NCBI GenBank assembly: GCA_023512835.1
Contig: CM042088.1
Span: 6,006,078-6,070,077 of the forward strand
DNA length: 64,000 bases
Direction of reading: 5' to 3'
Source of the DNA: Taxillus chinensis
Lineage: Eukaryota > Streptophyta > Magnoliopsida > Santalales > Loranthaceae
The notes below the pieces were generated by a model that worked only from the letters and a program-made list of their open reading frames with translations, did not search any database and was not told the DNA's origin. Position numbers and translations under genes: made by a program. Positions 26,976-64,000 of the stretch are shown in pieces (the stretch's first letter is position 1; each line of letters starts with the position of its first letter).

Positions 26976-27161
26976 TGTTCAGGAAGAACAGAACCCCTAC
27001 CTCAGGAAGATCCTCCTTGCTCTTGCTCCCACGCTAGACGCCGTCAACCCACGCAAGTCACCCCAGCAGCAACGATCTGGAACTCTCTCTCTTTCCCTCT
27101 GCGACGGCTGCGGCCGCTGACAACAAAAACCCTAAACCTAAAACAAAGAGAGGTCCTCCTC

Positions 27162-27276
27162 CTTATATAGACCTCACTTATCAAAATGATGTAGTTTTGA
27201 TAAGTGAACCCCATCTTGAAAACGACGTAGTTTTGATAAATGAAGCCCAACATCAAAATAACGTAGTTTTGATAAA
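27162..27276 (-). promoter_or_regulatory. TATA box and three ACGT-centred repeats of left LTR-B
   Basis: TATA complement CTTATATA at 27162-27169. Upstream on the minus strand are three units: 27178-27203 (arms TTATCAAAA and TTTTGATAA), about 27212-27240, and 27250-27276. Decayed G-box pairs lie further upstream at 28191-28216 and 28294-28318. Confidence 0.65.
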
Positions 27277-27333
27277 TGAAACACGTTACAACCTTTCTGC
27301 TTCCACACAGGACAAAATACCCATAATTCGAAC

Positions 27334-27724
27334 TGTAACAGCCCAGCCCACCCGTAGCCCGATATTGTCCGCTTTGGGCCTCGCCCGCACGATTTTCTTT
27401 TTGGTAGGCCCTCGGCCCCCAAAAGGCCTCATGCTAGGAGAGGTTTCCACAGCCACCTAAGTAGCCTGCTTCATTCTCCTCCCCAGCCGATGTGGGACAT
27501 TACATCCACCCCCCCTCGGAGAGCCCAGCGTCCTCGCTGGCACACCGACCCGGGCCCTGGCTTTGATACCATCTGTAACAGCCCAGCCCACCCGTAGCCC
27601 GATATTGTCCGCTTTGGGCCTCGCCCACACGGTTTTGTTTTTGGTAGGCCCTCGGCCCCCGAAAGTCCTCATGCTAGGAGAGGTTTCCACATCCACCTAA
27701 GTAGCCTGCTTCGTTCTCCTCCCC
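27334..27724 (-). mobile_element. TRIM copy 1, minus strand
   Basis: LTR of 171 bp at 27334-27504 and a second LTR at 27574-27724, separated by a 69-bp middle (27505-27573). On the minus strand the primer site TGGTATCAAAGCC (27559-27571) follows the second LTR, and a purine tract precedes the first one, so the order is 5' LTR (27724-27574), middle, 3' LTR. The 5' LTR lacks about 20 bp at its U3 end. No coding capacity, as is normal for TRIM elements. Confidence 0.85.
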
Positions 27725-27762
27725 CGGGATACATGCCTGGGGAAAAGAACGACGTAGTTATT

Positions 27763-28121
27763 GGGGGCCAAAGGCCTCCAAAAACAAAACCGTTTGGGGG
27801 CCAAAGGCCACAAAAACAAAACCGTGGGGCGAGGCCCAAAGCGGACAATATCGAGCTATGGGTGGGCCGGGTCACATTGCGTATGGTATCAGAGCCAGGG
27901 CCCGGGTCGGTGTGCCGGCGAGGATGCTAGGCTGTCCGAGGGGGGGTGGATGTAATGTCCCACATCAGCTGGGGAGGAGAATGAAGCAGGCTACTTAGGT
28001 GGCTGTGGAAACCTCTCCTAGCACGATGTGTTTTGGGGGCCGAAGGCTTACCAAAAACAAAACCATGCGGGCGAGGCCTAAAGCGGACAATATCAGGCTA
28101 CGGGTGGGTTGGGCTGTTACA
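27763..28121 (+). mobile_element. TRIM copy 2, plus strand, head to head with copy 1
   Basis: 5' LTR truncated at U3 (27763-27876), primer site TGGTATCAGAGCC at 27884-27896, purine tract GAGGGGGGGTGGA, then the 171-bp 3' LTR 27951-28121 starting TGTAATGTCC and ending GGGCTGTTACA. The 5' LTR contains a 32-34 bp tandem doubling of the TTGGGGGCCAAAGGCC segment. The same 5-bp sequence cgaac borders the pair at 27329-27333 and 28122-28126. Confidence 0.85.
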
Positions 28122-28490
28122 CGAACATAGCCCTTTGGGAGAAGATTACCAGCATAACAAAACGAAGGTGATGGTGTAAAAACATGGCTGCATGTGACAA
28201 AGGCCATTGTCACGTGCAAGCTCCAAATGCCCTAGGATTTTGCCACAAGCTTTAGAACTAAGTATGGAAGGCTCCCATGCAAAAACATCACTGCAAGTGA
28301 CAAAGGCATTGTCACATGCAACCTCAATTTGCTCCCTCTTGAGCTCATCACTTGCCTCATGCTTGCTCATCTATATACAAAGTGTTCTAGCCAATGTGTA
28401 TGAGAAGAAATCTCCCAAAGACCTGACAATTGCCACTCAAAAGGCATAATTATGACTAAGTCCTCACATCCCAAAACACGGGTCGTTACA

Positions 28491-29058: not shown

Positions 29059-30998
29059 TGTCATGCCCCCAATTTCTAGGGAACCCGGAACTAGGAACAT
29101 GATTTCCCCTTGCCCACACCCGATAGGTCAAGGGGTTGGTGACTAGCACCAATGTAGACTACACCACGGGTGTTGTCTCAAATATGCAACTTTGTACAGT
29201 GATAGATCAAGGGTAATCCTGTACTTTCCAATATATCATCATGCATACAATGAGTCAAACAGTCATACAGACATCAAAGCACAAACAGTATACAAATACA
29301 ACTGTCCACGGACCCATGTCTGGGATATCACGCAAAACAATACAGAATATAATACTGTATCATAAATCAGAGTAGTGGGCGTCCTCCTGGAAGGCAGTCT
29401 TCCACTAGTCTCAAGTCACACCTGAAAAAGGTAAACGGCAAGTAGGAGCGAGTGACAAGCTCAGTAGGTGACCCCAACACTCCACATCATGCAAACATAC
29501 AAGTCTATACTACATGCTCTGTGTAATCATGCACTATGTAGTGTGCACAATCATCAGGACTCAGCCTGCAAACAAACATCAGGACCCAGCCTGCCCACAC
29601 AGAACAGCTTGTGCACGATCCTCCATGGGATCCCAGCTCAGGGCACTCAGCCCTAGCTCAACGGCTCCACTGAGGCTTTAGCTTGTCCATAACGCAATAT
29701 GCCCAGCCACAGTCGCCACACAGGCCTGCCATCGGCGCATATGCCTGCCACGTCAACCACATAGCACCATCGGTGCATCACGGTGAGAACCCAACAAGTC
29801 ATAGAGCCTAAGCCCCAATCCCTAAAACCAACATACCAACACCAATATGGTCTTAAAGTATACAACACTCCCTTTAGAACTGTAGCCAGTCTTCACCGGT
29901 CGATCCTCATTCCTTGACTAAGGAAGGAGATACCCATAGGAGTTATTTTCTTGAAGTAAAAAGTCCCGGCATTGGGTCTCCATATCATAAATAAGATAAT
30001 CTGATTTTTGGGGATTTTTCTGAGATGTCTAACCCCACTTTATAAAAATTCACCTCTACAAAAAACTGGATTTTTACGAGATTTTACACTAAATCCCAAT
30101 TTTCACATTATGAAAGAGTGAGAATTAATTTTTCTAGTATTTTTCTTTGAATCCAAATGGGGGGTATTTCATTATTTATATTGTAACTTAAGTATATACT
30201 TTATAGGTTACAATGTAAATAGTCCAATCCAGTGCAGTCCAATGTCCAATTACATTGTTGGAGCTGAGACTCGTAGCGCGGAACTGCAGCGCGCCTCGGA
30301 GACTCATAGCTGGAGTTGTGACTCGTAGCTGCGTAGCGCGCCTCGAAGACTCAAAGCGGGTCTTCGATCTCCGACCTTCGGACTACGGGTCTACGAACTA
30401 CGACCCTACGAACTACGAGTCTACGAACTACGACCCTACGAACTACGGGTCTACGAACAATGACCCAGAACTTCGGATCTTCGTCATTTCGACTCAGTAA
30501 CGCGCCCAGGGTACTGTTCATCATCGTTTTCGCCTGTTCTTCGTCTGGAACCAACCCAGCAACCCCCAAACGGACACAAACACGCATTCTACGCAACAGG
30601 CTACGATATCTACCTCAAAGTGCATCCAGAATGCCTCTAAATCGTACAGATAACAACAGACACACACTAAATTTCAGATTTCCCGAAATCTAGATTTAAA
30701 TCCAGATTTCCATGGTTGACTTCTCAACCCAAATGGAATATGCAATTAAACAGCCCCAGATCACAGAAACACATATTAAAACTGATATAAAACAGTTCTT
30801 AACCACAGATTTTTTCCTAAACCATTAGATCTAACCCAAAATTGGATTTCTCCAAAACCTAGGGTTCATGCTTAATTTCACAAATCATGACAAATTCGTG
30901 CATACCAAGGATAGAATCAAGATAAGAAGTTTAAGAACACCTACTTGGAGTGATTCTTTGAGCTCCACGAACCCAAATCGCTAAGGCACCAAGCTCCA

Positions 30999-31054
<56 letters not shown>

Positions 31055-31449
31055 CGCACAAACGTGATAGTGTAAAGTGAAAGCTTCTTCTTTTTTCTGC
31101 TATTTATATTTCTGCCAGTCATTGACCAATAACTGACTTAGTCAATCATTGACCTAGTCAATAATTGACCTCCAAGGTCCCAAACTCCAAATTGAGTCAA
31201 ATTATAGTCAAAACGCTCGAAATGATAAGCACAACACTATTCAAATAATATCACACCCACATGACCGCCCAAACGCAAAGTCAACCAATAAACCCCAAAA
31301 AGTCAACAATTGGGTAAAACGGGGCCCCGACTCGGAATCGGGCCCAAGTACAGTCAAAATGCTCACATCGACGACTATACTACCGTCCAGATAGTTGCAT
31401 TCCCATAGAATGACTATCTCTCAAACCTACCCAAATACGAGTCTTTACA
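29059..31449 (-). repeat. Solo LTR-A1 (2391 bp)
   Basis: Plus-strand ends TGTCATGCCCC and GAGTCTTTACA; flanked by gtcct on both sides (29054-29058 and 31450-31454). No internal region follows, so it is a solo LTR left by recombination between two LTRs. Landmarks on the minus strand: WRKY-type TTGAC cores (31117-31170), TATA near 31100-31110, a GA/CT tract (31000-31050), and CTACGA/CGAAG repeats (30255-30480). Confidence 0.92.
31000..31050. repeat. CT (GA) microsatellite in LTR-A1
   Basis: About 25 CT units on the plus strand. On the minus strand this is a GA tract about 55 bp downstream of the TATA box. LTR-A2 and LTR-A3 have only short GAGAGAG-type runs at the same place, so the tract expanded in this copy. 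Confidence 0.95.
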
Positions 31450-36044: not shown

Positions 36045-38456
36045 TGTAAAGACTCGTATTCGGGTGGTTTTGAGAGATAGTCATTCTATGGGAATGTAAC
36101 TATCTGGATGGTAGTGTAGTCGTCGATGTGAGCATTTTGACTGTACTTGGGCCCGATTTCGAGTCAGGGCCCCGTTTGACCCGATTGCTGACTTTGCATT
36201 TGGGCGGTCATTTGGGTGTAATAATATCTGTTTAGTGTTGTGCTTGGCATTTCAAGCGTTTTGACTATAGTTTGACTAAATTTGGAGTTTGGGGCCTTGG
36301 AGGTCAATTATTGACTAGGTCAATGGTTGACTAGGTCAGTTGACTGGCAGAAATATAAATAGCAGAAAAAAAAAAAAAAAAGAGGAAGCTTTCACTTTAC
36401 GTTTCACGTTTGTGCATTGAGAGAGAGAGCTTGAGAGAGAGCTTGGAGGCTTTGGCGATTTGGGGCGATTTGTGTTCGTGGAGCTCAAAGATTCACTTCA
36501 AGTAGGTGTCATTGAACTTCTTATCTTGATTCTATGCTTGGTATGCACGAATTTATCATGATTTATGAAATTGAGCATAAACCCTAGAATTTGGGGAAAA
36601 CCAATTTTGGGTTAGATCTAATGGTTTAGCATAAGATTTGTGGTTAAGAACTATTTTATATCATTGTGGATATATATTTCGTGATTTTGGGGTTAATTAA
36701 TTGTGTTTTTCATGAGGGTTGATAAGTCAACCATGGGAATTTGGGTTTAGATCTAGATTTCTAGAAATCTAGAATTTAATGCGTGTTTCTGTTGTTTCCG
36801 TGCGATTTAGAGGCGTTCTGGACGCATTTTAAGGTAAATATCGCAGTCTGTTGCGTAGAATGCGTGTTTGTGCGTGTCTGGGGGTTGCTGGGTTGATTCC
36901 AAACGAAGAACAGGCAAAAACGATGATGAACAGTACCCTGGGCGCGTTACTGGGTCGAACTAACGAAAATCCGAAGTTCTGGGTCGTAGGGTCGTAGTTC
37001 GTAGACCCGTAGTTCATAGGTTCGTAGTTCGTAGTTCGAAGGTTCGAAGGTTCGAAGGTTCGTAGTTCGTAGATTCGTAGACCCGTAGTCCGAAGGTCGA
37101 AGTTCGTAGTCGAAGGATCGAAGTTCGTAGCCTCGTAGGTCGAAGATCGAAGACCCGCTTCGAGTCTTCGAGGCGCGCTATGCAGCTACGAGTCTCCAAG
37201 GCGCGTTGCAGTTCCGTGCTACGAGTCGCAGTCCTGAAGCTACGAGGCAGTGCAACAGCACTGGACTGGACCTATTTACACCGTAACCTATACACATCTA
37301 CACATTTATACTTAAGTTACTATGTAAATAACGAAATACCCCCATTTGGATTCATAGAAAAATACTAGAAAAAATTAATTCCCACTCTTTCAAAATGTGA
37401 AAATTGGGTTTTAGTGTAAAATCTCGGAAAAACCCAAAAGTTCGTAGTGGTGAATTTTTGGAAAGTGGGGTTAGATATCTCCGAAAAATCCCCCAAAATC
37501 AGATTATCTTAGTTATGCTATGGGAACCCAATGCCGGGACTTTTGATTTCAAGAAAATAGCTGCTAAGGGTACTTCCTTCATAAATCAAGGATTGAGGAT
37601 TTACTTGTGACGACTGGCTAGAGTTCTAAAGGAAAGGTTGAGAATGACATACCATACTAATGTTAGTATGTTGGTGTGAGGTATTGGGGCATAGACTCTG
37701 TGACTTGTTTGGGTTCTCACCGTGTTGCACCGATGGTGCTATGTGGTTGACGTGGTAGGCATATGCATCGATGGCAGGCCTGTGTGGTGACTGTGGCCGG
37801 GCATATTGCGCTGTGGACAGGCTAAGGCCTGAGTTGAGCCATTGAGCTCGTGGAGCTAGGGCTGAGTGCCCTGAGCTGGGATCCCATGGAGGATCGTGGA
37901 CAAGTTGTCCTGTGTGAACAGGCTGTCCTGATGTCTGTTTGCAGGCTGAGTCCTGATGATTGTGCACACTACACGGTGCACGAGTACACTGAGCATATAG
38001 TATAGACTTATATGTGTTGCATGATGTGGAGTTTGGGGTCACCTACTGAGCTTGTCGCTCACCCCTACTTGTTGTTTACCCCTTTTCAGGTGTGACCCGA
38101 GACTAGTGGAGGACTTTCTTCCAGGAGGACGTGCCCACTACTCTGATGTATGATACAGTACTGTATTCTGTATTTTATTATGTGTTGTATCCCGGACATG
38201 GGTCCGTGGACAGATGTATTTGTATACTGTTTATGATGTGATGTCTGTATGACTGTTTGACTTATTATATGCATGATGATATATGGGAAAGTACAGGATT
38301 ACCATTGATGTATGACTGTACAGAGTTGCATATTTGAGACAGCACCTGCGGTGTAGTCTCCATTGGTGCTAGTCACCAACCCCTTGACCTATCGGGTGCG
38401 GGCAAGGGGAAGTCATGTACCCGGTTCCGGGTTCCCTGGAATTCGGGGGCGTGACA
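36045..38456 (+). repeat. Solo LTR-A2 (2412 bp) in Tek-B gag
   Basis: Plus strand, starts TGTAAAGACTCG and ends GGGGCGTGACA. Left flank cttag, right flank ctcaa: a duplication with two later changes, since removing the LTR rejoins the gag codons for WWLS-VTGS. TATAAATAG at 36354-36362, TTGAC array at 36301-36347 and CTACGA/CGAAG repeats at 37010-37260. No internal region is attached, so it is solo. Confidence 0.9.
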
Positions 38457-40405: not shown

Positions 40406-40564
40406 TATAACAACATTGATAATACTCGACAGATTATTCACCACAGGGTCTAACCCCGGAATGGGTACTAGAAGAGACAAAACCCCTACCTCAACAGGTT
40501 CCCCCTTGTCCTTGCTTCCACACTAGACGTCGTCGCCGCACGAATCACCCCAACAGCAGCGCTC

Positions 40565-40610
<46 letters not shown>

Positions 40611-41102
40611 ACAGCTGCGGCAACTGACAACAAAAACCCTAAACCTAAAACAAAGAGAGCTCCTCCTTATATAGACCTCACTTATCAAAAGGATGTAGTT
40701 TTGATAAATGAAATCCCACTAGCAAAACGACATAGTTTTGATAAATGAAATCCCACCATCAAAACAACATAGTTTTGATAAATCAAACACACCATCAAAA
40801 TGACGTAGTTTTGATAAATGAAACACACCATTAAAACGACGTAGCTTTGATAAATGAAACACTCCCTCGAAGACTTGTAGAACACTGCCTTGAAGATCAC
40901 CGCCTCGGAGCCTCGTAGCTGCAGCCTCGAAGATCTATCTCGAAGATCAAACCATCGACCATCAAACCTTCGAACTTCGATCCTCGGTCTTTGACCTTAC
41001 GACCCAAATCTTCGGGTCTTCCACCTTTCGGCCGAAGCATTCACCCAGAGGTACTGTTCATCTTCGTTCCATCATGTTCTTCCCAAAACACGGGTCATTA
41101 CA
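39415..41102 (-). repeat. Right LTR-B (5' LTR of Tek-B, 1688 bp)
   Basis: Plus-strand ends TATCACGCCCCG and CGGGTCATTACA. The first base pair is TA where TG is usual. It holds CA and TA microsatellites at 40372-40406, a CT tract at 40571-40609, TATA, a five-unit palindrome array and CGAAG repeats. It abuts family-A LTR sequence at 41103. Confidence 0.85.
40666..41030 (-). promoter_or_regulatory. U3 of right LTR-B: TATA, five-unit palindrome array, CGAAG repeats
   Basis: TATA complement CTTATATA at 40666-40673. Just upstream (40682-40859) about five units of roughly 36 bp carry CAAAACGACGTAGTTTTGATAA-like inverted repeats. Beyond them (40863-41030) is a stretch of CTCGAAGAT/TTCGA repeats. The GA tract (CT on plus, 40571-40609) lies 60 bp downstream of the TATA box. 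Confidence 0.7.
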
Positions 41103-43275
41103 AATACAACTGTCCACGGACCCATGTCCGGGACACAATACACAACAATACAGAATACAATACTGTATCATACATCAGAGTAGTGGGCACGTCCTCTTGG
41201 AAGAAAGTCCACTAGTCTCGGGTCATACCTGAAAAAGGTAAACAACAAGTAGGGGTGGGTAACAAGCTCAGTAGGTGACGCCAAAACTCCACAACATGCA
41301 AACATACAAGTGTATATGCTTAGTGTACTCGTGCATCGTGTAGTGTGCACAATCATCAGGACACATCCTAAAAACAAACATTAGGACCTAGCCTGCCCAC
41401 ACAGGACAACTTGTTCACAATCCTCCACAGGATCCCAGCTCAGGGAACTCAGCCCTACCACAGCGCTATATGCGCAGACACAGTGCCATATAGGCCTGCC
41501 ATCGGCGCATTTGCCTGCCACAGCCACGCGCAATATGCCCGGCCACAGTGCCACACAGGCCTGCTATCGGCGCATATGCCTGCTCCGCCAACCACATAGC
41601 ATCATCTGTGCTTCATGGTGAGAACCTAACAAGTCATAGTGTCCAAGCCCCAATTCCTCAGACCAACATACCAACACCAATAGGGCATAGTTCACCATAC
41701 TCCTTTTATAACTGAACCCAGTCTTCACAGATCAATCATCATTCCTTGACCAAGGAAGGAGATACCCATAGGAGTTGTTTTCTTGAAATAAAAAGTCCCG
41801 GCATTGTGTCCCCATATCATAACTAAGATAATCTGATTTTTGGGGATTTTTTTGAGATGCCTAACCCCACTTCCCAAAAATTCACCTCTACGAAAAACTT
41901 GATTTTTCCGAGATTTTACACTAAATCCCAATTTTCACATTTTGAAGGAGTGGAATTTAATTTTCTAGTATTTTTCTTTGAATCCAAATGGGGGGTATTT
42001 CATTATTTACATTGTAACTTAAGTATATGTGGAGTTGACAACATAAATGGTCCAGTCCAGTGCAGTTGCAGTTGCTCGAAGCTACAGAACTGCGACTCGT
42101 AGCTGTGGGAATGTGGCCTCGAAGACGCGAAGCTGTGACCTGCGACCTTTAACCTTCGACTATGGATCTTTGACCCTATGACTACGAGTGTACGGATCTT
42201 CGACCCTATGACCACGGATCTTTGGATCTTCGACCCTACGACTACGGATCTTCGGATCTTCAACCCTACGACTATAGATCTTCGACCCTACGACCCAAAA
42301 TCTTCGACCCTTCGATCCAAATCTTCGGGTCTTCATCCTTTCACCCCAATAGTTTGCCCAGGGTACTGTTCATCGTCGTTTTTGCCTATTCTTCATTTGG
42401 AATCAACCCAGCGACCCCCAGACGCTCCCAAACACACGTTTTATGCAACAAACTATAATATCTACCTCAAAACGAGTCCTGAATGCCTCTAAATCGCACA
42501 GTAACAACAGAAATACGCACATAATTACAGATTTCTAGAAATCTAGATCTAAATCTAGATATCCATGGTTGACTTCTCAACCCTCATGGAATATGCAGTT
42601 AAAGAACCCCAGATCATAGAAACACATATCCACACTGATATAAATCAGTTCTTAACCATAGATCTTATGCTTAACCATTAGATCTAACCCAAAATTGGAT
42701 TCCCCAAAAACCTAGGGTTCATGCTTAATTCCATAAATCATGACAAATTCGTGCATACCAAAGACAGAATCAAGATAAGAAGTTCAAGGACATCTACCTA
42801 GAGTGATTCTTTGAGCTCCACGAACCCAAATTGCCCCAAATTGCCAAGGCTTCAAGCTTCCAAGCTCTCTCTCGCAAATGCACAAACGTGATAGCGTAAA
42901 GTAAAAGCTCTTACTTTTCATTCTATTTATATTTCTGCCAATCATTGACCACTAATTGATCCAGTCAATAATTGACCTCTTAACACAATAATTGACGTCC
43001 AAGGTCCCGAACTCCAAATTGAGTCAAATTATAGTCAAAACGCTCAAAATGACGAGCACAACACTATTCAGATATTATCACACTCAAATGATCGCTCAAA
43101 AGCAAAGTCAACCAATAAACCCCGCAAAGTCAACAATCGGGCCACTCGATGCCCGACCCAGAATCGGGCCCAAGTACTGTCAAAATGCTCACATCGATGA
43201 CTAGACTACTGTCTAGATAGTTGCATTCCCATAGAATGGCTATCTCTCAACATTACCCAAATACGAGTCTTTACA
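41103..43275 (-). repeat. LTR-A3, truncated by Tek-B
   Basis: Matches LTR-A1 from about 29295 to its end. The inner boundary at 43275 is GAGTCTTTACA. The left part was separated by the Tek-B insertion and is not found further left, so a deletion is likely. It interrupts Tat-E right after its G-patch segment. TTGAC cores at 42942-42998. Confidence 0.88.
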
Positions 43276-44289
43276 ATAGCCCAATCCGTACCTTTCTCTA
43301 GTGCTTTGTATGACTAAGGGCTCCTTAATCCCTTGTACTCGTGCACCCAGACCTTGACCTTCCTTATGCCCCAGTTTAAGCATGACTGCGGCAACAATCT
43401 TTGTAGCCTTTGGGAATAAGGCTCCCATATCTAGTGACTTTCTAGTGTTTGGGACATAGGCTGCATTAAGCACTTCAAACGAATGGTAGGAGCATTCTGG
43501 TATGTCCTTGCTACTTTCAATGGAAGGAACAGACATAGGCTTGGTAACCAAAATCTCTGCTTCTCCATATACACACATAAGTTGGTCGTCTACCACAATG
43601 GTAAGCACTTCAAACGAATGGTAGGAGCATTCTGGTATGTCCTTGCTACTTTCAATGGAAGGAACAGACATAGGCTTGGTAACCAAAATCTCTGCTTCTC
43701 CATATACACAGATAAGTTGGTCGTCTACCACAAACTTGACCTTCTGATGTAGTGTTGATGGCACTGCCCCTGCCGAGTGGATCCATGGTCTTCCAAGCAA
43801 GCAACTGTAGTATGGAGCAATGTCCATCACCTGGAACTCAACCAGAAACTCACTTGGGCCAATTTGCAAAGGGATATCTAGCGTACCAACTACTTCTCAC
43901 TTTTCACCGTCAAAAACTCTTACTACCATATTAGTGGGACGCACATGAGAGGAGTCTATTGGTAGTTGCTTCATGATTTGAGCCGGCATGATGTTTAGGG
44001 ATGACCCATTGTCAATCAGCATATGGGAGATAATGTGATCCTTACATTTGATAGATATATGTAAAGCTTTGACATGTCCAATACCTTCTAAAGGTGGCTC
44101 ATCTTTGCCAAAACTAAGGAAATTATCCACTATGATATTGTTGACGAGACTATTCAGATTTTCCAAGGATATGGTTGAAGGGACGTAAGCCTTGCTCAAA
44201 ACCTTCATGAGGGCTTCTCTATGTGGAGTTGAATCCATGAGCAAAGACAACAAGGAGATACGAGCCGGCTGCCGACTGAGTTGGTCCAC
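43276..44289 (-). pseudogene. Protease and G-patch region of Tat-E
   Basis: Frame 44289-43897, stop, then 43869-43276. The protease motif is HMLIDNGSSLNIMP (Asp-Asn-Gly-Ser), a form I associate with Tat elements. SCLLGRPWIHSAGAVPSTLH is the flap/end region. A 45-codon block is present twice. The segment MLKLGHKEGQGLGARVQGIKE has the Gly pattern of a G-patch, an RNA-binding or helicase-activating motif also known next to the protease of some retroviruses. It ends RYGLGYCKDSY near the LTR-A3 junction. Confidence 0.8.
43471..43740 (-). repeat. 135-bp in-frame tandem duplication
   Basis: 43471-43605 and 43606-43740 are nearly identical (one visible change inside the copies). The unit is 45 codons, so the frame is kept, and the peptide block from VVDDQL to FEVL is doubled. 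Confidence 0.95.
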
Positions 44290-47550: not shown

Positions 47551-49312
47551 TGTCACGCCCCAAATTTCCTTCCCCTTTGGAAATGGGTAATGACTATCCA
47601 TGCCCGCACCCGAAGGGTCAAGACTTCGGTGTAAACACCAAAGTGAGGACACCTACCGCGGGTGCTGTCCTATCCCTGTATCACATGTCAACATGCCAAG
47701 GGGCATGTACCTGTTTCCATGCCAACCACACCACCACAATATACATACATACGGTATTCACAACCCAAAACATCAATTACATTGCTCAGAGGTTTCAAGC
47801 TCTTTTATAACCCACTAGGGAACAAGCTCCCAATAATAAAACCAGGGTACACAGTTCAAGCAAACAGAATCTCAAATACAACAAAATAACCAAATGTATA
47901 TATATATATATATAAGGCCATACAGCCCCAGCGGCCTACCAACTCAGCTCTTCCGCCTATCGCCTGCTAGGTCCTGCAAAGAACAGTTCATAGGAGGGGT
48001 GAGCACACCACGCCTCGCTAGGGATCAAGTCTCCCCGGTCCCTGTCCCACTCTAAAACTATGCATGTCAAGTGGGTGCATGTGCTCGTGTAGTGACTTAA
48101 GCTAAAACTACAACCATCGCCCAAGTAACACACCTCATACCTCTCGCGATAGGAGGGCAGAGGACACCCCGCCACCACGGCGACGTGACATGCCACACCA
48201 GGCAAATGTGAATCTCATCTCAAGGGGTACAGTATAATGACTGTCCCATACTCAGCTCATTTTGCCCTCGTTTCTGGGGTTCTTATCTCAACTCCCCGCG
48301 TTTCTGGGGTTCTCATCTCAACTCAATAAACATAACTCATCAAACACAGTACAAACATGCAACTCATTCAACATACAGAAAACTCAACTCAGAATGTAAA
48401 ACAACAGATAGTCTTAGAACAATCAAATCATTACACATAACATCACCTAACCCCTCATGGTCCCAGAAGTCCACACATTTCTCACTCATAGTCTAGATCA
48501 TAAACAACCTTTCAAAGGAAGCTTATCCACCTCAAGGGGAGTTCAAACATCATTCTAACCATCCCAGAAGGTTCAGGGATGATTTTTAGCCAAAAACAAG
48601 GTTGCACGTGAAAAGGTCATTCTCACGTGCAGGGGTATTTCAACTCCTATGCCTCTAAGGAAGCTCCACCTAAAATTTGGGGCAATTTGGAGCAAGAACG
48701 AATCTGCAAGTGAAAAAGGCATTCTCACGTGCAGGCTCCAAAACCTTCCTTTTTGTCATTCTAATCATTTTTCCCTAAAGAACCAACCTCAAATTCGTCT
48801 TAGTTTAGAAGTTATTGAGGTTCTAAGCCCATAAACCGGGTCTAAATCCAACTCTGGCCTCACTCTCATTTGATTTCCCAATACCAGAGGCCTTAGCCAA
48901 GCCAAATATAGGGTTTTTCCTAAAATTTTCATCTAAATAATCTCAAGACAATGGGTATACAAATGACCCTTAACCCAAAGGCACAAATAATCTCACGCAG
49001 AAAATTTAGAAATTTAGAAAACTCGGACAAAAACCCCAGATCATCCATAGGCTCAAGGTGGAATTTAGAAACTCAATATATATAAAAAGGTCCCTTCTCA
49101 ACATCCCAGATCATCACATAAATTTTATTTTCTAGAAATCTGTAAGAGAGAGACGGCAAATAGACAAACTTGAAATCCCTACCTCGTATTGCAAAAAAAA
49201 GAATTGGGGAAAAGAACGGAGCGATTAGTGTCCTTGCTACCTCAACGCCTCCGGCCTCCCGTCGTCTGTAGGAAATCCTTGATCGTCAGGAACCCCTCCA
49301 CTCTGGATCGTC

Positions 49313-49349
<37 letters not shown>

Positions 49350-49758
49350 CGTGTGTGTGTGACGGCTACAGGGAAGGTAGGGTTTGGTTCTTCCTTTTCT
49401 TTTCTCCTATTTTATTTTTTTTATTATTTTGTTTTTAATAGAAGCCCAAGACCAAATGCAGCCCAATGGTTAAGTAAACCCAAGAAGAAAGGCAAAACAG
49501 CCCACTCTCTCTCATATTGGGTTTTTTCCTTCAAGGGAGGCCCAAAGCTCAAAATACAAACCCAGGTAATTTAAAAGGGAATAAAAATTATTTGTGAAAT
49601 CCCGAAAATACCCCTCAGGGCCATAAATCCCAAATTTAGTCCAAGTATAGTCAAAATTCTCCATTTGATGAGCACATCATTGTGCTGATATTCATTTGTT
49701 AAAATAAGGTCTCTAACTCAAGGCTGTCTCTAAGGCCCCTCAAATACGGGTCCTTACA
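47551..49758 (-). repeat. 3' LTR of Tek-D (2208 bp)
   Basis: Differs from the right LTR by scattered substitutions and by about 55 bp near 48540, where the right LTR has an extra G-box pair. TA run at 47898-47914 and CT tract at 49313-49347. No gene inside. Confidence 0.96.
48605..48731 (-). promoter_or_regulatory. Paired G-boxes in Tek-D left LTR
   Basis: CACGTG at 48605-48610 and 48624-48629 face each other, followed by CAAGTG 48707-48712 with CACGTG 48726-48731. Spacing between partners is 19 bp in both pairs. They lie downstream of the likely TATA region, unlike in Athila LTRs. Confidence 0.6.
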
Positions 49759-49943: not shown

Positions 49944-51248
49944 TCAAGGTTGTTCGTCCTCGAACAGGTCAGGGTAGTGAGCACGCATCTCAGCCTCATG
50001 TTCCCAAGTCTCTTCCTCCATACCATGGTGTTTCCACAACACCCGAACCAACAGAATAGTCTTACCTCGTAGCTGCTTCACGCGCCTATCCAAAATACGA
50101 ATTGGTGCCTCAACAATCGTCACATCCTCCCCAATATCCAGGGTACTCCAATCCAGCACATGTGTGGGATCTGGATGGTATTTCCGTAACTAGGATACGT
50201 GGAAAACATCATGAACTCTGCTCAAACTGTGAGGTAATGCCAACCTATAAGCAACGGGTCCAACTCTGCTCAAAATCTCGAACGGTCCAATGTATCGTGG
50301 AGATAACTTGGATCCCTTTCCAAATCGCTTATGCCCTCTCCGTGGAGAAACACGAAGAAACACGTGGTCTCCAACCAAAAACTCCAATGGTCTGCGTCGG
50401 CAATCCGCATAAGACTTTTGTCTACTCTGTGCCGTAAGAAGGCGCTGCCTAATCAGTTGGACTTTTGCCGTGGCCTCTTGGACCAATTGAGGTCCCAACA
50501 TAGCTACCTCTCCAGCTTCTGCCCAACATAATGGAGACCGACAAGGTCTGCCATACAATGCCTCAAACGGAGCCATCCCAATAGAAGCCTGGTAACTATT
50601 ATTATAGGCAAACTCTACCAAAGGAAGGTGAGAAGCCCCTGATCCCCCAAAATCAAGCACACAAGCTCTCAATAGGTCTTCCAACATTTGAATGGTCCTC
50701 TCTGACTGACCATCAGTCTCAGGATGGAAAACAGTACTCAAATTAAGCCGCGTCCCCAATGCCTCTTACAAACCATTCCAAAACCGAGAAGTGAATTGTG
50801 CATCTCTGTCTGAAACGATAGACAAAGGCACTCCATGCAATCGCACAATCTCATCAACATACAGCTGGCTCAATGTTCCAATGGAGTCTCGCTCCCGAAT
50901 AGCCAAGAAATGGGCCGATTTAGTCAATCGGTCTACAATGACCCAAATCATATGCTTCCTCCTAGAAGTGGTAGGAAGTCCTGTCACAAAATCCATGGTA
51001 ATAAGCTCCCACTTCCACTCAGCCACAGGCAATGGTCAGACTCGACCAGCAGGTCGTGGGTGCTCTGCCTTTACTTGTTGACAAGTAAGGCACCTGGAAA
51101 CAAACTCAGCTATACACCTCTTCAGTCCTGGCCACCAGAACTGTGCTCGCACAGCATGATACATCTTAGTCCCTCCTGGATGCACAGCCAAACGGGAATG
51201 ATGAAACTCCCTCATCACATCCTCGCGTAAGGAGGGTGGTACTATCAA
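49944..51248 (-). pseudogene. Integrase and chromodomain of Tek-D
   Basis: One frame from 51248 to 49944 with stops near 51033, 50763 and 50187. Zinc domain: HHSRLAVHP and SRCLTCQQVKAEH. Core: Asp in TMDFVTGLP, Asp in [13 protein letters not shown], Glu in TDGQSERTIQML. The GPF/Y part reads YIGPFEILSRVGPVAYRLAL. The chromodomain at the end has LLVRVLWKHHGMEEETWEHE and MRAHYPDLFEDEQP. Chromodomain integrases target histone-marked chromatin, which fits an insertion into other elements. Confidence 0.93.
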
Positions 51249-51262
51249 GCGCCCCTGAAATC

Positions 51263-53305
51263 TCAGCTCATGCTCAGTTCCTTCTGTCCATTCCTCACAA
51301 GTTCACCAGCCTCTATCTGGGCCCGGATCACTTCACAGTCCACGTCCCCCAACTGTCCCTCAGGGACACGATGGTATAACTCTGGCATTACAGCAATAGA
51401 ACATAGGACTGCTTCCCCATTTCTAAAATCAGGCTGTACCTGCAGCACTGCTAACCGTTCCATCATTTTCCATTCTCTCATGGAAACCTCAGCTTTTCCC
51501 TTCCTACTCAGTGCATCTGCAACTACATTCCCCTTTCCAGGTGTGTAGGAGAGTGTAAAGTCAAACATCTGCAAGTACTCCACCCATCTCCTCTGTCTCA
51601 AATTCAGATCCCTCTGGGTGAAGATGTACTGTAGGCTCTTGTGGTCAGTGTATACCACAAATTTCTCCCCCAGCAGGTAATGTTGCCACGACTTCAAGCC
51701 AAAGATAACTACTGCTAATTCCAGATCATGAGTTGGGTAATTCTGTTCATGGGGCTTAAGCTGTCGTGAGCCATAAGCTATGACTTTGTGTTCCTGCATC
51801 AGAACACACCCCAATCCAACGCGGGATGCATCACGATACACCTTGTAAGGCACTCCATCCCGTGGTAGACTCAAAACTGGTGCAGTAGTCAAACGAGTCT
51901 TCAATTCCTCAAAAGCTCGCTAACACTTGTCCGTCCACTCGAATTTAACTCCTTTTCGTGTCAGGGCTGTCATCGGTGCTGCTAACCGAGAGAACCCTTC
52001 CACGAAATGCCTATAATATCCTGCCAGACCCAAGAAACTACGGATCTCAAAAACATTCGTGGGCCTTTTCCAAGATGATACAGACTCAATCTTGGTTGGG
52101 TCCACTCTAACTCCCTCGGCAGATACCACATGCGCAAGAAAATGCACCTCTTGCATCCAGAAGTTACACTTGCTGAATTTAGCATACAACTGGTGGTATC
52201 GGAGCGTCTGTAACACCATAGTCAAATGCTCCTCATGCTCCTCTCGGGTCCTTGAGTATACAAGGATGTCATCAATAAATACCACCACAAAGGAATCTAG
52301 GTACGGGGAAAATACCTGATTCATCAGGTGCATGAACACCGCTGGTGCATTCGTGAGCCCGAAAGGCATCACTAACCACTCATAGTGCCCATATCTACAC
52401 CTGAAAGCAGTCTTAGGAATATCCTCGCTCCTGACCCTCACCTGATGATACCCAGAACGCAAATCAATCTTTGAAAACCACTGTGCCCCACTCAGCTAGT
52501 CAAACAGATCATCAATCCTCGGCAAAGGGTATTTGTTCTTTACTGTCACTTGGTTCAGCTTTCGATAATCGATGCAGAGTCGTAGTGAACCGTCTGCCTT
52601 TCTAGCAAACAAGACTGGTGCACCCCAAGGTGATGTACTTGGGCGAATGAAACTTTTATCTCCTAACTCCTTTATTTGCTTTTGAAGCTCCCTCAACTCG
52701 ACAGGTCCCATCCGGTATGCCACTTGTGAGATAGGTCCCACCCCTGGCAATAACTCGATTGTGAACTCAACACTCCTGTGTGGAGGCAACTCCAGTAACT
52801 CCCCAGGAAACACATCCTGAAAATTTTCAACAATAACTGGCCACACTCGTTTTTCAGTATTACCTTCCTCCTCAAAAGTAAGTGTAGCAAGCCTATGGGT
52901 AACACTACCCCATAGCCCTCCCGTCAGTCCAGCCCTCCCGGCATTCTCATCCCATTCCCCCACTAGGGTACAGAGTAACCCTGTGGGTGAAATAAATGAC
53001 ACCCGCCGTCTATAACAGTTAATCTTAGCCTGGAAGGCCATTAACCAGTCCATCCCTAAAATCAAATCAAAGGTCCTCATGGGCATCACATACAAATCAA
53101 ATGTGACCTCAACATCTCCTATCGTAAGCATACACTCACGACACACTCGGTTTATTGTCGATGCACCTCCCACAGGTGACTCAACACTGAGGGGCTTATC
53201 TGCCCTCACACAATCAAGTCCAAGGCTCTCAACCAAGGACTTAGCAATCAAGGAGCACGAAGCTCCGGTATCAAACAAGACAGCAACTATAGTGCGAGAT
53301 ATCAA
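51263..53305 (-). pseudogene. Protease, reverse transcriptase and RNase H of Tek-D
   Basis: One frame with stops near 52494 and 51918. Protease: [78 protein letters not shown] and the active site [12 protein letters not shown]. RNase [17 protein letters not shown] (usual Cys-Asp-Ala is Arg-Asp-Ala), [11 protein letters not shown] and [12 protein letters not shown], ending [13 protein letters not shown]. It is one frame off from gag (overlap at 53302-53305) and from integrase. Confidence 0.93.
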
Positions 53306-54726
53306 ACCACCAAAGGTCCGGCTTCGCCTTCCTCGGAGGATAATGGCAACTCCTCCTGCTCGGATGGTGCTGAAGTAAGTGCAAATACTCTGCCATGGTT
53401 TGCCTTGCTATTAGCCTCTCCTGTTTGTCCTTTGATCCCTGTCTGATGTCCACTTGGATGATTCTCTGAACTGCCTTGTGGTTGCTTCTCTCCCTGTGGC
53501 CTTGCATGAGTGGAACCAGCCTGACTCGCCTGCCATGAACGTGTTGGCCTCGGAGTCGGGGCCCGAAAGTGGGTCTCACTCCTCCCTCCTGATGCGAATC
53601 CACTAGCTCCCCGATTGTTCCCCTTACTGAAACACACCGTACTAATGTGTCCTGTCTTCCCACAGCTATGGCACTGCAGGTGCTGCTTGGGACACTCACG
53701 TTTCATGTGTCCAGTTTGGCCACAACAAGTACACTCACGTGGGATACCTCCAGCTGAGTTCTCCGGTCCTCCAGAATAACGGGACTTTGGTGGAGCCATT
53801 GGTGATTGGCCCTTGTCCCTGGAGAAACTGCTACCTCCAAGCTCAACTCTCGGTTTCTTGGAGTCTCCCTGCTTATCGCGCGTACTCTGTGCTAGCCGCT
53901 CCTGATGAGCCTGTTTACCCTCCTCCAGTCCTCTTTCCACAATCTTAGATGTCTCCACGACCTCCGCATAGGTCCTCAGCCGCAGCATCTCCACCCTCTG
54001 CTTCAGGGCAGGCCTGAGTCCCATGGTAAACTTATGGGCCTTCAGGTCCTCTCTAGAGATTGCCTCAGGGGCAAACCGGCTTAGTCCTCGGAATTCACGC
54101 TCATACTCAGACACAGTGCGTGATCCTTGTTTCAAACCACTGAATTCCTCCCGTTTCTGCCACCGCAAGGACTCCGGGAAGTACTCTTCATGGAACAACT
54201 AAAGGAACTCCTCCTATGACAAGGTCTGCATGTCCCGGCTACCTGAAATGCTGAGCCACCACTCTAAGGCTACCTCTTCCAACTGCCTGACTGCTAACCT
54301 CACTTTATCCTCCTCCCGAGGTCGGAGAAAGGAGAACACGTGCTCAATCTGTCGCAGCCAATGCTCTGCTGCTAGAGGATCAGCTCCTCCCTTGAACCTC
54401 GGTGGCTATTCCTTCCGGAACCGGGTCACCACATCTTCCTCCTCCCTTCTCACCGGTATCTCTTGTCTACGTGGAGGCTCTGTCTCATGGAGTGGAGAAG
54501 GTAGCACTGTCTGCTGTGCCATCATCTCCCGCCTAATCTCATCTCGGATCTCTCCCCTGAGATCCTCTCGCACGCCTTGTACATTCTCACTCAAGGCCCT
54601 AACTTGGGCCATGATCCGCTCCATGGGATCATCGCCCTCCGTTTGCAGCCTTCCCTCTTGTCCAGCACGTGCAGAAGGCTCATCCTCTGCAGCTGGGGTA
54701 GCCCGGGTAATTTTCCTAGGAGGCAT
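53302..54726 (-). pseudogene. gag of Tek-D
   Basis: Starts MPPRKITRATPAAEDEPSAR at 54726 and holds one frame to 53302 with three stops: after RFRKE (about 54405), and two near 54225 and 54200 around EEFL. The gag core includes LRLRTYAEVVETSKIVERGL and MGLRPALKQRVEM. Both zinc knuckles are intact: CTCCGQTGHMKREC and CHSCGKTGHISTVC. It encodes the capsid/nucleocapsid of the particle. Confidence 0.93.
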
Positions 54727-55217: not shown

Positions 55218-57027
55218 TGTCACGCCCCAAATTTCCTTCCCCTTTGGAAATGGGTAATAACTGCCCATGCCCGCACCCGAAGGGTCAAGGGTTCGGTGTA
55301 AACACCAAAGTGAGGACACTTACCGCGGGTGCTGTCCTATCCCTGTATCACATGTCAACATGCCAAGGGGCATGTACCTGTTTCCATGCCAACCACACCA
55401 CCACAATATACATACATACGGTATTCACAACCCAAAACATCAATTACATTGCTCATAGGCTTCAAGCTCTTTTACAACCCACTAGGGAACAAGCTCCCAA
55501 TAATAAAACCAGGGTACACAGTTCAAGCAAACAGAATCTCAAATACAACGAAATAACCAAATGTATATATATATAAGGCCATACAGCCCTAGCGGCCTAC
55601 CAACTCAGCTCTTCCGCCTATCGCCTGCTAGGTCCTGCAAAGAACAGTTCATAGGAGGGGTGAGCACACCATAGCTCAGTAGGGATCAAGTCTCCCCAGT
55701 CCCGTCCCACTCTAAAACTATGCATGTCAAGTGGATGCATGTGCTCGTGTAGTGACTTAAGCTAAAACTACAACCATCACCCAGTAAACACACCTCATAC
55801 CTCTGCCTGCACAGGAGGGCAGAGGACACCCCACCACCACGGCGACGTGACATGCCACACCAGGCAAATGTGAATCTCATCTCAAGGGCTATAGTATAAT
55901 GACTGTCCCATACTCAGCTCATTTCCCCGCGTTTCTGGGGTTCTTATCTCAACTCCCTGCATTTCTGGGGTTCTCATCTCAACTCAATAAACGTAACTCA
56001 ACAAACACAGTACAAACATGTAACTCATTCAACATACAGAAAACTCAACTCAGAATGTAAAACAATAGATAGTCTTAGAACAATCAAATCATTACACATA
56101 ACATCACCTAACCCCTCATGGTCCCAGAAGTCCACACATTTCTCACTCATAGTCTAGATCATAAATAACCTTTCAAAGGAAGCTTATCCACCTCAAGGGG
56201 AGCCCAAAACAAGCTGCACGTGACAACCTATTGTCACGTGCAGAGGAAAATTAACTCCAAACATCATTCTAACCATCCCAGAAGGTTCAGGGATGGTTTT
56301 TAGCCAAAAACAAGGTTGCACGTGAAAAGGTCATTCTCATGTGCAGGGGTATTTCAACTCCTATGCCTCTAAGGAAGCTCCACCTAAAATTTGGGGCAAT
56401 TTGGAGCAAGAACGAATCTGCAAGTGAAAAAGGCATTCTCACGTGCAGGCTCCAAAACCTTCCTTTTTGTCATTCTAATCATTTTTCCCTAAAGAACTAA
56501 CCTCAAATTCGTCTTAGTTTAGAAGTTATTAAGGTTCTAAGCCCATAAACCGGGTCTAAATCCAACTCTTGCCTCACTCTCATTTGATTTCCCAATACCA
56601 GAGGCCTTAGCCAAGCCAAATACAGGGTTTTTCCTAAAATTTTCATCTAAATAATCTCAAAACAATGGGTATACAAATGACCCCTAACCCAAAGGCACAA
56701 ATAATCTCACGCAGAAAATTTAGAAATTTAGAAAACTCGGATAAAAACCCCAGATCATCCATAGGCTCAAGGTGGAATTTAGAAACTCAATATATATAAA
56801 AAGGTCCCTTCTCAACATCCCAGATCATCACATAAATTTTATTTTCTAGAAATCTGTAAGAGAGAGACGGCAAATAGACAAACTTGAAATCCCTACCTCG
56901 TATTGCAAAAAAAAGAATTGGGGAAAAGAACGGAGCGATCAGTGTCCTTGCTACCTCAACGCCTCCGGCCTCCCGTCGTTTGTGGGAAATCCTTGATCGT
57001 CAGGAACCCCTCCACTCTGGATCGTCT

Positions 57028-57065
<38 letters not shown>

Positions 57066-57476
57066 GCGTGTGTGTGTGACGGCTACAGGGAAGGTAGGGT
57101 TTGGTTCTTCCTTTTCTTTTCTCCTATTTTATTTTTTTTATTATTTTGTTTTTAATAGAAGCCCAAGACCAAATGCAGCCCAATGGTTAAGTAAACCCAA
57201 GAAGAAAGGCAAAATAGCCCACTCTCTCTCATATTGGGTTTTTTCCTTGAAGGGAGGCCCAAAGCTCAAAATACAAACCCAGGTAATTTAAAAGGGAATA
57301 TAAAATTATTTGTGAAATCTCGAAAATACCCCTCAGGGCCTAAAATCCCAAATTTAGTCCAAGTACAGTCAAAATTCTCCATTTGATGAGCACATCATTG
57401 TGCTGATATTCATTTGTTAAAATAAGGTCTCTAACTCAAGGCTGTCTCTAAGGTCCCTCAAATACGGGTCCTTACA
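55218..57476 (-). repeat. 5' LTR of Tek-D (2259 bp)
   Basis: Pairs with 47551-49758. Followed by gcttc, the target duplication. CT tract at about 57035-57062. Contains one G-box pair more than the left LTR. Confidence 0.96.
56217..56445 (-). promoter_or_regulatory. Paired G-boxes in Tek-D right LTR
   Basis: Pairs: CACGTG 56217-56222 with 56235-56240 (absent from the left LTR); 56319-56324 with CATGTG 56338-56343; CAAGTG 56421-56426 with CACGTG 56440-56445. Confidence 0.6.
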
Positions 57477-63324: not shown

Positions 63325-64000
63325 ACCTTTACTTGTCCTCAAGCAAAAAGAAATAAACACACAGTCAAACGGAAAAGAACGAATAAACGAACAAACAAGA
63401 GAGGCATGGTTTCCCAAGGCATACATTTCTATCATGATGAAGTAGACATTCCAATAGCTAAAAATGAATCATAAGTGAATCAAAACATGCCCTTACTATC
63501 AAGTCCAACAACCATGTAATATCGTTACTAACAGTTCAGATAGAAGCAAACATGCAAGGATAAAATGAACTTAGCTCCCCCTGAATGTCCTCACGAAGGT
63601 TAGAGCAGCCTTACTCAAATATAACTTTCTTTTCTCTCCTCTCAGGCCCTACTATCAATGCCTAACAACTAAGGGTTTACTCTTACACCCACTACTAGCT
63701 ATTGATTAAGTTTTTGCCAAGTAAACATGCGAGGTCCCCATGTACTCGTCAAGGAAAACACACACTCTATTCTACTTGATGATAAACACTGGGAGCTAAA
63801 GATTTAAGCTCACATTTGTGACACAAATTGCTCAGCAAAACAGCTTAGCCATTATGGCTGCAACACGAAAACAAAAACACATATAAACAGTAAGCCATTG
63901 TGGCTTTTATTCGGGCAAACACTTGTTTCTGTTTCTGTTTGTTTTTGTTGTTTTTTTGTTGTTTTTTTTTTCACACTTATTTTTAGTAATAACCTTACAA
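63309..64000 (-). other. Conserved 3' noncoding region of Ath-G
   Basis: Matches 997-1690 in blocks, including AAGCCATTGTGGCTT (63892-63906), AGCCATTATGGCT (63847-63859) and the start of AACCTTACAA at the window edge. No coding sequence seen. Confidence 0.78.

Follow-up and report, generated by a model that had tools for sequence, protein, structure and literature searches.

Two head-to-head TRIM-like elements within a single 5-bp flanking duplication in Taxillus chinensis

Anatomy of the inverted pair

The window analysed here, a stretch of 64,000 nucleotides from Taxillus chinensis (assembly GCA_023512835.1, contig CM042088.1, positions 6,006,078 to 6,070,077 of the forward strand, numbered from 1 below), contains two TRIM-like elements of opposite orientation, which face each other head to head and together occupy exactly positions 27334-28121. 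Their inverted arms, 27334-27572 and 27883-28121, each span 239 nt and show 92% complementarity; of the 18 differences between them, 14 are transitions. Both outer LTRs are complete, with termini reading TGTAATG...CTGTTACA; TRIMs are miniature LTR retrotransposons, and here the outer LTRs measure 171 bp and the internal domains ∼69 bp. No open reading frame of at least 150 amino acids is listed within 27334-28121, and the pair is without coding capacity of its own (Table 1).

Table 1. Parts of the inverted TRIM pair and its flanks (window coordinates)
Feature	Position	Strand	Remarks
Left TSD copy	27329..27333	+	CGAAC; direct reading; equal 5-mers by chance 0.0013
Copy 1, 3' LTR	27334..27504	-	171 bp, TG...CA; U5 end outermost at 27334
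Copy 1, internal domain	27505..27573	-	69 bp; PPT-like purine run 27505-27517; PBS-like TGGTATCA 27564-27571
Copy 1, 5' LTR	27574..27724	-	U3 truncated by 20 bp; 7/151 differences from own 3' LTR
Joint	27725..27760	.	27731-27752 LTR-start-like; 27747-27760 LTR-like; holds the 12-mer in common with 27221-27232
Copy 2, remaining 5' LTR	27761..27881 (right border approximate)	+	∼32-bp internal tandem duplication; altered U5 end
Copy 2, internal domain	27882..27950	+	∼69 bp; PBS-like TGGTATCA from 27884; PPT-like purine run at end
Copy 2, 3' LTR	27951..28121	+	171 bp; U5 end outermost at 28121
Right TSD copy	28122..28126	+	CGAAC

The PBS-like motif TGGTATCA, presumably of the plant initiator Met tRNA family, adjoins the inner LTR of both copies and has two further occurrences in the window (10559 and 55207), and a PPT-like purine run (GAGGGGGGGTGGA) adjoins each outer LTR. 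Because in each copy the PBS-like motif lies inside and the purine run outside, each inner LTR is the 5' LTR of its copy, and the insertion ends on both sides in U5. The head-to-head layout and the two outward U5 ends proposed in the initial annotation are thus both borne out. The inner LTRs are less well preserved: that of copy 1 is missing the initial 20 bp of U3, and that of copy 2 has a degenerate start and a U3 side that is shortened and rearranged. A tandem duplication of ∼32 bp (27757-27830), together with the altered U5 end, is seen in the inner LTR of copy 2 alone.

The left border reads ...ATTCGAAC/TGTAACAG and the right border CTGTTACA/CGAACATAG (slashes mark the ends of the insertion), so that direct reading confirms the earlier observation that the same five bases, CGAAC, stand immediately outside both ends. 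A pair of 5-mers drawn at random from the window is identical with a probability of 0.0013 (∼1 in 780), and CGAAC itself is rarer than average (frequency 0.0004). Within the insertion, neither CGAAC nor GTTCG occurs. Two inverted TRIMs accordingly lie within one 5-bp target site duplication (TSD), the arrangement depicted by Gao et al. in their Fig. 2C. We considered a fold-back replication that duplicated the locus and rejected it, the right flank being a direct copy of CGAAC and not the reverse complement of the left. When the two flanks were joined as an empty-site query and compared with the window, no match elsewhere extended across the join; each was confined to a single side.

BLAST at an E value of 0.01 returned no further TRIM copy in the window. 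A 19-position LTR pattern gave no stretches in the viral contig set (viral_contigs) and 16 in the genome contig set (genome_contigs). When both TRIM copies and the neighboring repeat LTR-B were compared with these 16 stretches by BLAST, matches were obtained in 13, all of at most 40 bp and consisting mostly of the pattern itself; we take these matches as chance.

Several other repeats are present in the window. LTR-B, a name given in the initial annotation, lies at 26983-27284 and 40471-40790; its two copies are 79% identical and contain internal units of ∼36 bp. Direct repeats of ∼2.2 kb at 47551-49758 and 55218-57476 (94.4% identical) flank gypsy-like open reading frames (50190-54198, minus strand) and are probably the LTR pair of one retrotransposon. 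Three related stretches of ∼2.2-2.4 kb (29059-31449, 36045-38456, and 41099-43275), 78-82% identical and with the middle one inverted, are perhaps LTRs of one large family. An apparently recent tandem duplication of 132 nt (43467-43733; units 43467-43598 and 43602-43733, 99.2% identity) is located inside a listed open reading frame (43240-43869, minus strand).

The joint and the divergence of the LTRs

The two truncated U3 sides are connected by what had been described as ∼38 bp of filler. A joint is indeed present, but part of it resembles the start of the LTR. In local alignments, 27731-27752 aligns with the LTR start of the copy 1 outer LTR and 27737-27752 with that of copy 2, both in the correct orientation. 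We compared 27725-27752 with the first 45 LTR bases and found that 187 of 20,000 shuffles scored as well for copy 1 and 697 of 20,000 for copy 2; among random 28-mers from the window, the numbers were 5 of 4907 and 35 of 4905, respectively. A second segment, 27747-27760, aligns to the matching place in the copy 2 outer LTR, just before the TTGGGGGCC anchor, with a score reached by 151 of 20,000 shuffles. For a model in which two complete U3 ends are joined directly and then trimmed, 28 of 5000 shuffles attained the score, as did 41 random draws from the window out of 5000 at most, this upper figure allowing for draws near the locus that were skipped and went uncounted. On account of the collinear position of these segments and of the shuffle and random 28-mer tests, we read the 38-bp filler as probably LTR in part rather than as wholly foreign DNA.

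The initial annotation had also pointed to 12 filler bases that equal LTR-B sequence at 27221-27232, and had proposed that they were copied from there during repair. The match is real: the expectation for this 12-mer in the shuffled window is 0.00, and counting over the 27 filler 12-mers one would expect ∼0.2 matches window-wide and 0.006 within 1 kb. When the entire 38-bp filler is aligned locally, LTR-B gives a stronger match (score 24, reached by 1 of 2000 shuffles) than the LTR start does (scores 17 and 19, reached by 145 and 58 of 2000 shuffles, respectively). The filler also contains a 14-mer, TGGGGAAAAGAACG, that matches at 49205 and 56919. These positions sit in two copies of one repeat and thus count as one place; read directly, the surroundings of 49205 look unrelated to the TRIM. 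Another filler 12-mer matches at 63371. Since part of the filler resembles the LTR, and since an equal or longer match is found elsewhere in the window, LTR-B may have served as a template but need not be invoked to account for the joint, and we prefer the LTR reading.

The LTR pairs of the two copies have diverged unequally. In copy 1 the 5' and 3' LTRs differ at 7 of 151 positions, whereas in copy 2, where the inner LTR can be aligned over 27793-27882, 18 of 87 columns differ (Fisher p = 0.00025). Leaving out the last 8 columns, which cover the scrambled U5 end, reduces the latter figure to 10 of 79 and brings the p value to 0.035. A simultaneous insertion of both copies predicts like divergence, unless the inner LTR of copy 2 was damaged or the LTRs of copy 1 were converted. 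The unequal divergence is therefore a difficulty for any simultaneous insertion and the main evidence against a single event; either the inner LTR of copy 2 suffered damage at the joining or later, or the copies differ in age.

In the part of the LTR that is readable in all four, each copy 2 LTR carries more private changes than each copy 1 LTR. Where the 3' LTR of copy 2 is unlike both copy 1 LTRs, its 5' LTR has the copy 1 state in five of the six readable columns (98, 115, 129, 145, and 159; the exception is column 94). Most differences between the copies therefore look as if they arose after insertion. The recognizable homology of both arms ends near the same LTR position.

Origin of the pair

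Our preferred reading, to which we assign a probability of roughly 0.6, is a single integration through the two U5 ends of a U3-joined pair, the palindrome center having been eroded later. Such an event fits the anatomy and the common flank better than two independent insertions. It is supported by the outer U5 ends, which are intact, by the identical flank, which has a length usual for LTR retrotransposons, by the PBS-like motifs beside the inner LTRs and the 92% complementarity of the arms, and also by the joint, which looks partly LTR-like, and by the homology of the arms, which ends at nearly the same LTR position. The maize precedent and the HIV-1 findings discussed below point the same way. 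Against it stand the unequal divergence of the LTR pairs and the possibility, ∼1 in 780 for this window, that the flanks match by chance.

By this route, a helper integrase would have attached two cDNAs by their U5 ends to a single target and so generated the 5-bp duplication CGAAC; the flanks and the TG...CA ends lead us to infer an integrase-made duplication. The U3 ends would have been linked by host end-joining, either before integration, yielding a linear dimer, or afterward, and both orders fit equally. Subsequent trimming of the palindrome center may then have damaged both inner LTRs and left the scrambled, partly LTR-derived joint.

The initial annotation had favored one of these orders, in which integrase captured two separate cDNAs by their U5 ends at one target and host end-joining then healed the free U3 ends. 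The use of two U5 ends at one target agrees with the anatomy and the flank, but the proposed order cannot be told apart from the integration of a preformed dimer, and we regard it as a tentative variant, on balance doubtful. If true, the locus would be the fossil of a two-molecule integration in a plant, and not of a preformed dimer.

Two separate insertions of different age would account directly for the unequal LTR-pair divergences, which keep this explanation alive, and for the excess of private changes in each copy 2 LTR; moreover, an EVD insertion nested in antisense within EVD has been reported in Arabidopsis (PMC11624286). The second TRIM could have entered the TSD of the first (CGAAC-A-CGAAC-B-CGAAC), with a deletion then removing the middle copy of the duplication and both U3 ends, or two nearby insertions could have lost the intervening DNA and have equal flanks by chance. 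These histories require, however, either the ∼1 in 780 match or a second insertion at exactly the same 5 bp, and in addition a deletion that ends within both U3 regions. The insertion contains no third CGAAC, which speaks against the nested variant only to the extent that its deletion would not have removed that copy anyway. We consider two insertions unlikely, though they are the rival to which most weight is due.

It is also conceivable that the pair arose from one cDNA, whose minus strand, in the course of reverse transcription, folded back at its U3 end and served as its own template, the resulting palindromic dimer integrating by its two U5 ends. The arms would then have been near-identical at birth, as the copy 1 state of the copy 2 5' LTR at five of six columns suggests, and both would stop at nearly one place in the LTR, as they do. 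Column 94 and an ACGAyGTrG-like block before TTGGGGGCC, on the other hand, appear common to both copy 2 LTRs and distinct from copy 1, which hints at two subfamilies and so at two distinct source elements; the signal is weak and lies in a gapped alignment. We judge such self-copying to be quite improbable.

Inverted repeats are prone to misassembly, but an artefact joining two TRIM-bearing reads or haplotypes is very improbable here, as the arms carry 18 differences over 239 positions and the common 5-bp flank would be left unexplained. Confirmation of the arrays in the maize figure by PCR and sequencing (PMC4717578) likewise argues against it.

The single-strand RNA fold predicted for the locus has an energy of -690 kcal/mol, compared with a mean of -311 kcal/mol for 20 shuffles, and a low fold energy is expected of any inverted repeat. 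A transcript running through the pair would form a long, near-perfect hairpin, which might possibly act as a source of siRNA.

Comparison with known arrays

A structure of the type described here has already been published for maize. Gao et al. (2016; PMC4717578) detected tandem TRIM arrays in 35 of 43 plant genomes. The legend to their Fig. 2C presents a maize array "with two inverted TRIMs" enclosed by a single TSD (AC220956:117725-118283, TSD CTTCA); the arrays of Fig. 2 were validated there by PCR and sequencing. As in Taxillus, two TRIMs of the same family are inverted within one 5-bp TSD, but the family and the host are different. At 559 bp, compared with 280 bp for the single element, the maize array seems to have lost nothing at its joint; in our pair, by contrast, damage is seen in both inner LTRs. 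We draw this likeness from the legend, which is silent on which ends, U3 or U5, point inward, and the paper's account of its arrays gives no mechanism for the inverted form. Among the literature matches listed, this is the only publication that describes inverted TRIMs in one TSD.

Other arrays share some features of the pair. Wukong (PMC4528315), rice TLI1 and TLI2 (PMC11899658), and Cassandra (cited in PMC4717578) likewise contain several LTRs and internal domains per array, and TLI1 and TLI2 are also enclosed by one 5-nt TSD. These head-to-tail arrays alternate shared LTRs and internal regions, however, whereas the Taxillus copies are inverted and have four LTRs; in Wukong the orientation is described as "usually ... 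in the same orientation" (PMC4528315).

A partial parallel to the proposed mechanism comes from aberrant HIV-1 integration, as portrayed in PMC5041404. There, one end is inserted normally; the end that integrase did not insert is left to host enzymes, is frequently truncated, and is in some cases linked to additional viral DNA in either orientation, much as we propose for the U3 ends. In these aberrant HIV-1 events, large duplications of host DNA are the commonest outcome, whereas in Taxillus both outer ends look integrase-made and border a clean 5-bp TSD. For new EVD insertions in Arabidopsis, the relevant part of PMC11624286 reports no read pair with closely spaced antisense LTRs and states technical limits to this result, which argues against such pairs forming often.

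The existence of TRIM pairs inverted within one TSD suggests that two like ends, or dimers, can be used by the retrotransposon machinery; such pairs also leave behind long inverted repeats that could serve as siRNA sources. What the Taxillus pair adds to the maize case, besides a question about which step came first, is a worked-out anatomy, with U5 ends outside and a U3-U3 joint that is eroded.
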